NCBI GenBank assembly: GCA_009909085.1
Contig: JAAANX010000065.1
Location: forward strand, 62,001-126,000
Source: Cyanobacteria bacterium GSL.Bin1
Lineage (GTDB): Bacteria > Cyanobacteriota > Cyanobacteriia > Cyanobacteriales > Rubidibacteraceae
Direction of reading: 5' to 3'
Length of the DNA stretch: 64,000 nucleotides
Numbering within the stretch: the stretch's first letter is position 1; each line of letters starts with the position of its first letter. Position numbers and translations under genes: made by a program. Below the pieces are notes generated by a model, which was not told where the DNA came from, searched no databases, and saw only the letters and a list, made by a program, of their open reading frames with translations. Of this stretch, positions 13,268-16,552 are shown in pieces.

Positions 13268-13963
13268 TTATACTTTATTTTGGGTTTGACTTAGGATTTT
13301 AATTAAATCAGCTCTCTTTGTCTTACTATAACCTTTAATTCCTCTTTTTTTAGCCATTTGCTTCAATTCTTTAGCATTAAACATTTCTAAGATATTTGTA
13401 TCAGTAATAATTTCAGGTAAAGGCTCTGGTGTCACATAAAAAACTTCCTTAAATATTTTTAATTTGCTACCTCGTGTAATGCCACATTTCAATTTAGTGA
13501 CATCATTTAAACTTTCTCGCCAATAACGACGGGGTGCTTCGTCGATGCGACTACTCGCTTTAGCAACATTAACACCTTTTAGAGAGGTTACAGGACGATG
13601 AACCAAATATTCAAGGCCTAGTTTAATTTCATCAAAGCTTGCTGTTGCTAAATTAATTTGAGGAACTTTTTCGTGAGCTAAAAGTTGCGAAGCTTCAGTA
13701 GTTGCAGGAGAATTATCAGCAATAATACACCAAACTTTGTCTAACCCCGCTTGTTCTGCAACTGCATAAGTAAAAGCATTACCAATGACTTGATATTGAT
13801 CTTCTCCCGTTTGCTTCACAATAATTGGAAGCCAATTTCGACTATTGGCTTGATTGACTGCTTGAGCGGCACCATAAATTAAAAATTCCGAGACTTCAAC
13901 GGGTTCATTAAGTTCAAGTTCATCAAAGTACAGATACATTAAAGACCCAACTTCTTGTTTCAT
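13268..13963 (-). CDS. ParB-like protein with C-terminal Rho-N/SAP-type helix domain
   Basis: The first about 90 residues resemble a ParB N-terminal fold (WLPIIVKQTGEDQYQVIGNA, then AVAEQAGLDKVWCIIAD). However, the ParB arginine motif (GxRR) is replaced by GNAFTY, so CTP or DNA chemistry may be altered or lost. The last 40 residues (LKQMAKKRGIKGYSKTKRADLIKIL) are a Rho-N/SAP-like nucleic-acid-binding helix-extended-helix. The start codon overlaps the stop of the ParA-like gene (ATGA), so the two proteins are made together. I infer a two-component partition-like or defence-like module; no function is proven. Confidence 0.65.
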   Translation of the reverse strand: MKQEVGSLMYLYFDELELNEPVEVSEFLIYGAAQAVNQANSRNWLPIIVKQTGEDQYQVIGNAFTYAVAEQAGLDKVWCIIADNSPATTEASQLLAHEKVPQINLATASFDEIKLGLEYLVHRPVTSLKGVNVAKASSRIDEAPRRYWRESLNDVTKLKCGITRGSKLKIFKEVFYVTPEPLPEIITDTNILEMFNAKELKQMAKKRGIKGYSKTKRADLIKILSQTQNKV

Positions 13964-15327
13964 GAGAGAAAATACTCCTTAGCGAAAGATTTGTAGTAAT
14001 TAAATGCAATTTTATATCTATAAACAGCTGGTATTCCATAAAATGCAGCTTTTGCTATGTAAGCATAATAAGGAATTTCATAAATTTCTGAATTTCTATG
14101 ACCTTGGGTGGTTTTAGGAAAAAAGTAGGGTCGTAAATCAACTCCTTTTTTACTTTTAGTTTCTTTTATCAGTTGAAAGAGTTGCTCTCTAGCTTGTTTT
14201 CGCTGCGCCTCTGTTATGTTTTCGCCATTATAAAAAATCGGTAAAGCAGTAGGATTAGCAACATCAATCGCATCATCAAATGCTTCGCGATGCTTTTTAC
14301 CTACTTCATCAAGAAAGTCTGTAATCACTTGTTGGGCATTTAAAAGAGAAGCAAAATTATTATGCTTAGTTGGAAGAAGAACTACATCAGCAGCAATAAT
14401 TGTTTCTTGACTAAAAAAATTCCAGCTAGGGGGAGCATCAATTAAAATGTAATCATAATCATTTCTAATATTTTTTAAGACGTTACGTAAACGACCTCTA
14501 GTGACTTCTGACAGTAACTCATTCTGTTTTTCGTTTTTCTCCATAAAAGTTTCATCAGCAGGAATGATATCAAACCCAGTTTCTGAACCTTTTTTATTAG
14601 CAATACGATAAGGGTAAATAGCCTTTTCAATTTTATAAGTTCTATAATTCTTCAGACACTCATAAAGTTTGTGTGTTCCCGGCTTTGCCTTTAAGATCTG
14701 AGTTAAATCTTTTTGGTTCGGATCAAAATCAATGACTAAAACCTTGTGATAAATCCCTAAATAGGCTGCTAAGTTAAGGACAGTTGTTGTTTTCCCAACC
14801 CCTCCTTTGTTGTTGTAGATAGTAATCGTCAGGGCTTGGGCTGGATCATCAATAATCTTTTTGAGTTGCTGAAATTTCTCATCGATATTATCTGCTTTCA
14901 AACGAATTAACTGGGTGACCGGATAAACGACTTTACGATGTTTGCGAAAGAGTTGAATGTAATCAGCATTCGTAATAATTCCCCATTTGGCTGTTTGGCA
15001 ATTGACAGCACTGGGAGCTAAGTAACGCTTAATTTGCTTAACGGTCTTTTTATATTCCCCATTGGCAAGATTCACGTCCCGCCCTTTTACTTCAACAATA
15101 AGAAAAGGGTTTTTCGGTGAATAAAAAAATAAATCTTCATCTGTATTTCTACGTGCTGCAAAGTCGACAGCTTGACCTCCTACACCAGTAGAAAACTCTG
15201 GATATCGCTCATTTTGAGTAAAGCCTAACGCTTCAAGGAATGCAGGTATAAAACGATGAGAGATAATTGTTTCAGGTGCTTCTTCTGGAAGGGATAAAAG
15301 GGCTTGCTTTAAAGGTGAGTCAGACAT
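13960..15327 (-). CDS. PD-(D/E)XK nuclease-like domain fused to a ParA-type ATPase
   Basis: The N-terminal 145 residues look like the HsdR-N/type I restriction nuclease fold: Asp55 in QAVDFAAR, Glu79-x-Lys81 in IVEVKGRD, Gln98-xxx-Tyr102 in KQIKRYL, then KWGIITNADYIQLF. A linker leads to a ParA/MinD ATPase: deviant Walker A NKGGVGKTTT near 173-182, Walker A-prime VLVIDFDPNQ near 205 and Walker B YDYILIDAPPS near 300. At 455 aa it is far longer than plain ParA (about 250-300). Its stop overlaps the ParB-like partner. ParA proteins pattern on DNA; coupling to a nuclease-like domain is unusual and could serve mobile-element maintenance or defence. Confidence 0.8.
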   Translation of the reverse strand: MSDSPLKQALLSLPEEAPETIISHRFIPAFLEALGFTQNERYPEFSTGVGGQAVDFAARRNTDEDLFFYSPKNPFLIVEVKGRDVNLANGEYKKTVKQIKRYLAPSAVNCQTAKWGIITNADYIQLFRKHRKVVYPVTQLIRLKADNIDEKFQQLKKIIDDPAQALTITIYNNKGGVGKTTTVLNLAAYLGIYHKVLVIDFDPNQKDLTQILKAKPGTHKLYECLKNYRTYKIEKAIYPYRIANKKGSETGFDIIPADETFMEKNEKQNELLSEVTRGRLRNVLKNIRNDYDYILIDAPPSWNFFSQETIIAADVVLLPTKHNNFASLLNAQQVITDFLDEVGKKHREAFDDAIDVANPTALPIFYNGENITEAQRKQAREQLFQLIKETKSKKGVDLRPYFFPKTTQGHRNSEIYEIPYYAYIAKAAFYGIPAVYRYKIAFNYYKSFAKEYFLS

Positions 15328-15354: not shown

Positions 15355-15630
15355 GTGCGTAAAAACACAGAAAACAATGAACTTAATTTACAATCGTATT
15401 GTAGTAAATTTGTGTCTGATCTAGCTAGATATTGCCAGCAAACCTCAGTAAAAAATCGTTTTAGAGTAATCCAAGAAAATGATCATCCAGTAGCTATAGG
15501 CTGCTTAGGGAAATTTCAAGACATTATGGATGGTTTATTTGTTGCAGCACTCTTAGTGATTTTCTTGCCTGTTGCTTGTTGCCTATTCCCTCCCTTCAAG
15601 CAGCCAAATGACTTTTCCAGCAGACCCTAG
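15355..15630 (+). CDS. Possible small membrane protein (GTG start)
   Basis: A 91-codon frame with a GTG start runs divergently from the ParA-like gene. It has a polar N-terminal half and one hydrophobic segment near residues 57-80 (DIMDGLFVAALLVIFLPVAC). No family is recognised and there is no clear ribosome site. It may be a real accessory partner of the divergent operon or a chance frame. Confidence 0.3.
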   Translation: MRKNTENNELNLQSYCSKFVSDLARYCQQTSVKNRFRVIQENDHPVAIGCLGKFQDIMDGLFVAALLVIFLPVACCLFPPFKQPNDFSSRP

Positions 15631-15967: not shown

Positions 15968-16042
15968 TCTGGGAACTGCTCTTGTTCAGTTAAGTCACTT
16001 TACAATATAAAGTAGTTGATATACGGTAATCTTTAATTGAGG

Positions 16043-16552
16043 ATGGCTAAACAGCAGATCAACTTTCGCATTGATCCAGCACTTTTACAAACCATTAAAA
16101 ATCGGGCGCAGAAAGAAGGAATTCCTTACACCCAGTGGATTAGAAATGCTTGTGTATCCCAATTAGCAGTGGATCCTGTGATCACGATTGATGAAGAAAT
16201 TGATCTTTACGCGCCTACTGCTATACATTATAGTGAAAGCAATATACAGTATAGTGATACGACTTTACAAAGTGATATACAGGATTGGGAACAAACAGAA
16301 AGTGAGCACACCCCCATTACCCTTGCCGACACGGTTCCGCAAGCCAAAGCAGAAAATACCCTCCAAGAGCAGATTAACCATCTCAAGACTCGTTTGCGAT
16401 GGGAAAGCCGATATCGTCAGACCTTAGAAACTCAGGTTTATTACCTCAAATCAATGCTAATGAATACAGTATCAGATCTCAAACAGAAAATCGCCTCCGT
16501 TGAGAAGCGCTTACCGACGAACAATGATGATGAGATAAAGAGTAACGACTAA
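16043..16552 (+). CDS. Ribbon-helix-helix (CopG-like) protein with coiled-coil tail
   Basis: The N-terminus QQINFRIDPALLQTIKNRA is an RHH strand-helix that normally binds operator DNA as a dimer. A variable acidic middle follows. A C-terminal coiled coil near residues 110-160 (LQEQINHLKTRLRWESRYRQ) could oligomerise it. An upstream TTG at 16037 is possible; ATG 16043 gives the natural RHH start. ATATAC-type motifs occur just upstream (16018-16024) and inside the gene (near 16241 and 16274), possibly self-operators. The target is unknown. Confidence 0.65.
   Translation: MAKQQINFRIDPALLQTIKNRAQKEGIPYTQWIRNACVSQLAVDPVITIDEEIDLYAPTAIHYSESNIQYSDTTLQSDIQDWEQTESEHTPITLADTVPQAKAENTLQEQINHLKTRLRWESRYRQTLETQVYYLKSMLMNTVSDLKQKIASVEKRLPTNNDDEIKSND

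Follow-up and report, generated by a model that had tools for sequence, protein, structure and literature searches.

Organisation of the two-gene locus

We analysed a 64,000-nucleotide stretch of contig JAAANX010000065.1 from Cyanobacteria bacterium GSL.Bin1 (hereafter the window) and focused on two adjacent genes on its minus strand, A and B, together with their relatives in other genomes. The features of the locus are as follows.

13960..15327, minus strand: gene A (455 aa), a PD-(D/E)XK (HsdR-N type) N-terminal domain plus a ParA ATPase
14878..15327, minus strand: A residues 1-150, PD-(D/E)XK nuclease-like domain (HSDR_N_2, hhalign, model topology)
15163-15165, minus strand: codon of A D55
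15085..15093, minus strand: predicted active-site ExK of A (E79-V80-K81), near-invariant in 33 aligned relatives
15034-15036, minus strand: codon of A Q98
14782..14811, minus strand: deviant Walker A motif NKGGVGKTTT of A with the ParA signature lysine K174 (alignment)
13963..14841, minus strand: A residues 163-455, complete ParA/Soj-type ATPase domain (Soj fold match)
13960..13963, minus strand: ATGA, the stop of A overlapping the start of B (a -4 overlap in most relatives)
13268..13963, minus strand: gene B (231 aa), a degenerate ParB N-domain plus HhH-like and Rho_N/SAP-like domains
13667..13945, minus strand: B residues 7-99, ParB N-domain (Srx-like fold) without GxRR (fold search)
13430..13666, minus strand: B residues 100-178, helix-hairpin-helix-like domain (weak ComEA match)
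13271..13405, minus strand: B residues 187-231, Rho_N/SAP-like domain of nucleic-acid-binding type (Pfam, fold search)

The coordinates, lengths and motifs of both genes, as well as the ATGA overlap, were correctly given in the original prediction, which had described an HsdR-N-type domain fused to ParA and a ParB-like/Rho-N partner lacking GxRR. The fusion in one chain was borne out by motif conservation, HSDR_N_2 matches, profile comparison and a Soj match with Z of 27, and the structural model shows a PD-(D/E)XK topology in residues 1-150. The description of the partner held for the Rho_N domain, the ParB fold (Z 13.1) and the replacement of GxRR by GNAFTYA, but it had missed the middle domain at residues 100-178.

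Gene A combines a nuclease-type domain with a complete ParA ATPase

The motifs read from the A sequence comprise D55, E79-V-K81, Q98-IKR-Y102 and the deviant Walker A motif NNKGGVGKTTT. Alignment of A with its relatives revealed near-complete conservation of D55 (32/33), E79 (33/33), K81 (32/33) and Q98 (33/33), and the active-site residues are invariant across the alleles of one cyanobacterial genus, g23. The ExK motif is still present in plasmid versions of A at ~25% identity, and the active-site motif is retained in those partnerless versions that were examined. The near-invariance of the catalytic residues, together with the ExK of the plasmid and solo versions, argues for a working nuclease active site in A.

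Homology to known nucleases was found at several levels. Pfam HSDR_N_2 was detected in 26 of 32 A relatives (E of 0.01 or better), and A of the window scored 24.3 bits, just below the cut-off of 25. When 28 N-terminal domains of A were compared with ten independent HSDR_N proteins using hhalign, the two families matched with a probability of 98.7 (E = 1.8e-16) and the D, ExK and Q positions were aligned. The ten-protein HSDR_N family in turn matches solved nucleases (RM.BsaXI, an HsdR, BpuSI and Cas4); a profile of the A nuclease domain gave no direct match to PDB sequences, so that the solved nucleases were reached via these HSDR_N relatives. The AlphaFold2 model of A (pLDDT 91.9, pTM 0.92) places helices, three strands, a helix carrying Q and further strands in the nuclease half; D lies on strand two and ExK at strand three, and block pLDDT is 85-97 over this helix-three strands-helix-strands topology. 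Thus, on the model, alignment, hhalign and Pfam, A contains the alpha-beta-beta-beta-alpha-beta core with D...(E/Q)xK that is typical of HsdR-N-type PD-(D/E)XK domains. In the fold search with the whole chain, the matches were filled by the ParA half.

The ParA half matched AAA_31 in Pfam (E = 1.3e-31 for A of the window) and Soj of H. pylori in the fold search (Z 27.2 across 256 residues). G175, G176, G178, K179 and T180-182 are invariant among the relatives of A, and the signature lysine K174 is nearly so. This half therefore has the features of the ParA branch, namely KGGxxK[ST] with the signature lysine, Walker A' and B motifs, and the Soj fold. Taken together with the HSDR_N homology, this evidence identifies A as a nuclease-type domain placed ahead of a complete ParA.

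Gene B is a ParB-like protein without the CTP-binding motifs

The model of B (pLDDT 91.9) divides into three domains. Residues 7-99 matched the ParB N-domain of M. xanthus in the fold search (Z 13.1, 1.9 A over 89 residues), and the ParB_N match in Pfam (E = 7e-4) fell under its sequence cut-off. Residues 100-178 gave a weak to middling match to ComEA (Z 7.0, 61 residues), and residues 187-231 matched Rho N and SAP-like domains with Z of 5-7 (Rho, Z 6.9). Rho_N was also detected by Pfam in B of the window (E = 1.4e-6) and in 24 of 33 B relatives. The middle domain is duplicated at seven loci of other clades (L015, L017, L025, L026, L030, L033 and L085). One B clade lacks the Rho_N tail, and in its place most members of this clade have the middle domain twice.

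Several hallmarks of ParB are missing from B. The place of GxRR is taken by GNAFTYA (mostly GN-x-F-x-Y-A in aligned relatives), and neither the GxRR (Box II) nor the ENxxR (Box III) CTP-binding motif was present in B among the aligned relatives; binding of another NTP by B is possible. HTH_ParB had no Pfam match among 33 B members, and the model has other domains beyond residue 100. The consensus ParA-binding motif of ParB, [LFI]G[KR]G[LFI] in a 2025 survey (PMC12704722), is likewise absent from B in the alignment, and the N-terminus carries (V/I/L)G-x-L.

The same non-canonical ParB-type domain was observed within larger proteins on two viral contigs (L246:4834-6285 and L245:5590-6660), where its motifs read GNSFIYEAA and GNAFIYEAA. 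These proteins sit amid apparent terminase or virion-type genes, and the domain occurs twice in tandem on L245.

Distribution and pairing across cyanobacteria

Full-length A was found in 37 of 386 cyanobacterial genomes, spanning 27 genera; this count leaves out broken copies in G078, G133 and G145. B adjoins A in 32 of the 37, and the genomes with A and without B are G306, G280, G247, G179 and G089. The expected pairing of the two genes in other cyanobacteria is therefore well conserved. Presence varies strongly between genera, with A in 10 of 12 genomes of genus g23 versus 2 of 16 in genus g12. In three related genomes, a solo A lies beside rpsB-tsf (L087:9376-10767, L088:9305-10711 and L089:9247-10701).

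The module occurs in complete single-contig cyanobacterial genomes, and most copies are chromosomal; Nostoc plasmids carry it as well, so that the initial description of the module as chromosomal tells only part of the story. On these Nostoc plasmids the module coexists with ParM/StbA and with further ParA genes. Less closely related A-B pairs were seen on cyanobacterial plasmids and within the family to which the window belongs (G374). On the Pseudanabaena plasmid ABRG53g (12.6 kb), such a distant pair (L132:10781-12574) is the sole visible ParA-type gene. Existing plasmid records label the genes 'AAA family ATPase' or 'ParA family protein' and 'Rho termination factor N-terminal domain protein'. 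The search outside cyanobacteria covered plasmid, phage and IMG/VR collections plus one genome scan, and none of 50,697 phage records contained a near-full-length relative.

The module is a horizontally moving cassette

We compared separate trees of A and B and found the same main clades in both, including the clade with the duplicated domain. These clades cut across host taxonomy: the window and G121, which belong to one genus, fall in different clades (grouping rejected, AU test, P = 1.3e-4), as do the members of family f4 (P = 2e-16) and of family f22 (P = 1.6e-4). Within the window, GC content is lowest in the module (35.4% vs. a mean of 43.5%).

Within genus g23, the copies compared share one chromosomal place, and in G390 of that genus the left flank joins the right flank directly, with 3-4 bp shared (L262:3270-3400). 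The shortest filled allele carries an extra segment of 2188 bp containing A and B only (L078:8665-10854), and other alleles hold HicA/HicB-like or transposase-like genes (named by eye) within the same segment. This empty site may reflect either gain or loss of the module. Trees that cut across host families and the clean empty site in g23 together show that A and B form a self-contained cassette that moves horizontally. In the window's own genus, scrambled synteny ruled out comparison with an empty site. Phage origin was also considered and rejected: one IMG/VR contig has the module, but a single terminase family was searched for there, without a match, and matches to viral families were few.

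Unequal evolution of A and B

We then examined substitution patterns in genus g23, where the mean dN/dS of A (0.62) is the highest of 18 neighbourhood ortholog families (next, 0.38), versus 0.11 for B (seven alleles), at similar dS (0.087 for A and 0.080 for B). Across nine alleles, the amino acid varies at 101 of 444 codons of A and the change is silent only at 48, whereas 18 codons of B are amino-acid variable and 25 silent only (Fisher's exact test, P = 0.0025, a statistic that ignores relatedness). The changes in A are densest near residues 211-280 and 386-435, both in the ParA half. Elsewhere the dN/dS of A is ordinary (0.145 in the solo clade and 0.15 in the Nostoc group), and the high value in g23 could instead reflect relaxed constraint. 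One g23 copy of A, in G357, contains an in-frame TAA next to an intact partner (L068:9410-10749). In genus g12, dS was 1.15 for A vs. 0.28 for B, which suggests that A was replaced or exchanged relative to B.

Genomic context

Among 145 neighbouring genes, five matched tyrosine recombinases and the PADLOC matches were thin and mixed (raw counts). A defence island near the pair had been thought worth looking for, and no dominant defence signal stood out among these neighbours (raw counts). A small divergent frame of 91 aa at 15355, earlier put forward as a possible third component, had no convincing family match and a relative in none of the fetched loci, and its role as a component is not supported. 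The search near the genes, upstream and downstream, for parS-like or shared repeats and motifs returned only the HIP1 (GCGATCGC) background and lineage-specific arrays; a parS farther from the genes is possible. The window's genome encodes a conventional ParA/ParB pair elsewhere (C151), and the module is thus not its only such system.

Some further observations were made around the module. At L061, an 11-bp repeat (unit read AAGTTGGACGT) occurs 16 times in tandem within 400 bases upstream of the start of a partnerless nuclease-ParA gene. At six loci from several lineages (L065, L071, L068, L073, L077 and L078), the module lies a few kb from an apparent ATP synthase operon (named by order and sequence); because the ends and distances vary, this proximity was not counted as meaningful. 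In the window, a CopG/Arc-like protein (CopG_antitoxin, E = 1e-8) is encoded at 16037-16552 on the plus strand; its C-terminal part is long and possibly coiled coil, and a neighbouring toxin gene was not obvious.

Possible functions of the module

ParA proteins move DNA and cargo, and ParA with ATP dimerises on DNA. By extension from this biology, ATP-bound ParA halves of A would dimerise on DNA and bring two nuclease domains together. B could load onto particular DNA through its HhH-like and SAP-like domains, and its ParB-type domain could contact ParA and trigger ATP turnover, so that B would choose the place where the nuclease assembles and also reset it. In this reading the module would cut DNA that is foreign or in competition, be it of a phage, a plasmid or a rival element, and would not serve segregation. 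In general terms, A and B probably police or compete with DNA, rather than merely sharing it out at cell division. The original suggestion that positioning and cutting of DNA are combined, in defence or for maintenance of an element, is plausible. The specific form of a horizontally moving DNA-policing or competition module with an ATP-gated nuclease is plausible, if short of probable; we count it as the best reading because the active site, the ParA motifs and the pairing are conserved, the nuclease half is homologous to HsdR-N, the module is mobile and low in GC, A and B differ in dN/dS in g23 and in dS in g12, CTPase motifs, HTH and parS were not found, and a conventional ParA/ParB pair lies elsewhere in the same genome. 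Against it count the lack of a dominant defence signal among the neighbours (raw counts), the lack of a PADLOC model of this architecture among those found, the possible relaxed constraint on A in g23, the ordinary dN/dS of A in the solo clade and the Nostoc group, and the plasmid-borne relatives, which fit maintenance too.

The main rival, which we consider rather unlikely, is a divergent partition system for the maintenance of a plasmid or element, in which the replicon would be positioned by ParA and B, and chromosomal copies would be what remains of integrated elements. The nuclease domain would then either process DNA, by resolving joined copies or nicking a site, or serve as a DNA-binding arm in place of the HTH found in type Ia ParA; DNA binding alone, however, would not need the full active site that A has kept. 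A complete ParA fold with its signature lysine and overlapping genes in parA-parB order agree with partition, but B has neither an HTH nor the consensus ParA-binding motif, and A also exists without B. Likewise, the occurrence of the module on Nostoc plasmids fits maintenance too, but those plasmids have ParM/StbA and other ParA genes besides, and chromosomes hold most copies; ABRG53g, with the distant version as its only visible ParA-type gene, agrees with partition, a reading that is most plausible for plasmids. A CTP-independent ParABS system provides a precedent (PMC12260392), although no parS-like repeats were found near the genes here.

A chromosomal housekeeping or DNA-repair factor, in which the nuclease would be distributed across the nucleoid by ParA and recruited by B to damaged or joined DNA, appears improbable. 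It would account for the presence of A in most g23 genomes, several at the same chromosomal place, and for the solo version beside rpsB-tsf in three related genomes, but sits poorly with the patchy distribution (37 of 386 genomes, and 2 of 16 in g12), the horizontal spread supported by AU tests, the clean empty site, the pseudogene and the fast change of the A protein. A toxin-antitoxin-like addiction pair, with A as a self-targeting nuclease restrained by B, is highly improbable despite the two overlapping, mobile genes and their conserved pairing, since five genomes have A without B (those examined retain the active site), A differs from typical toxins in its large size and ATP dependence, and the putative toxin precedes its antitoxin in the operon.

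Relation to known systems

We compared the module with systems of related composition. Type I ParABS (Soj/Spo0J and P1 ParA/ParB) shares the ParA fold and motifs, the overlapping parA-parB order and the ParB N-domain fold, whereas A adds a PD-(D/E)XK domain and B is without GxRR/CTPase boxes, HTH and consensus ParA-binding motif, with no parS found. HsdR and HSDR_N_2 nucleases (type I restriction, RM.BsaXI and BpuSI) share the nuclease domain with D, ExK and Q; A, in contrast, has ParA in place of the SF2 translocase (ResIII scored weakly in only 1 of 32 A relatives), and no methylase or specificity gene (HsdM/HsdS) adjoins the module in the window. ParT/ParA of Streptomyces SCP2, the CTP-independent ParABS noted above, also combines ParA with a partner that acts other than via CTP, but ParT has a parS and no apparent CTPase domain at all, and a fused nuclease is not described (PMC12260392). 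The 2025 survey of ParB-CTPase-fold fusions likewise covers ParB-type domains that are fused to further nucleic-acid domains and frequently lie on mobile elements; it gives only the DUF3850 fusion as consistently beside parA, and Rho_N or HhH fusions beside a nuclease-ParA are not mentioned in the text consulted (PMC12704722).

No description of the A-B pair was found in open-access papers, and no PADLOC model of the nuclease-ParA plus ParB-like architecture was found. It is a reasonable possibility, advanced with caution, that A and B represent an undescribed class in which ATP-dependent ParA dimerisation on DNA activates a fused nuclease and a non-CTPase ParB-like adaptor, bearing HhH-like and SAP-like domains, selects the DNA, serving as a mobile, fast-evolving cyanobacterial system of defence or inter-element competition. 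If A cuts DNA, a nucleoid-patterning machine would have been turned into a DNA-cutting one. As a small two-gene module present in many cyanobacteria, including complete genomes, it can be tested directly.

The candidate defence system PDC-M28B in PADLOC also includes a ParA-superfamily ATPase of similar length, but the member examined has KGGVGR, compared with KGGVGKT in A, and no nuclease domain was recognised in it. Assignment of A to PDC-M28B was rejected: A matched with E of 1e-5 over residues 77-202, mainly through general ParA homology, versus ~1e-64 over the full length for true members. In another cyanobacterium, a PDC-M28B-type KGGVGR ATPase follows a small HEPN-like gene (by eye; L136:1066-2865), and this is a different ParA-superfamily pair.
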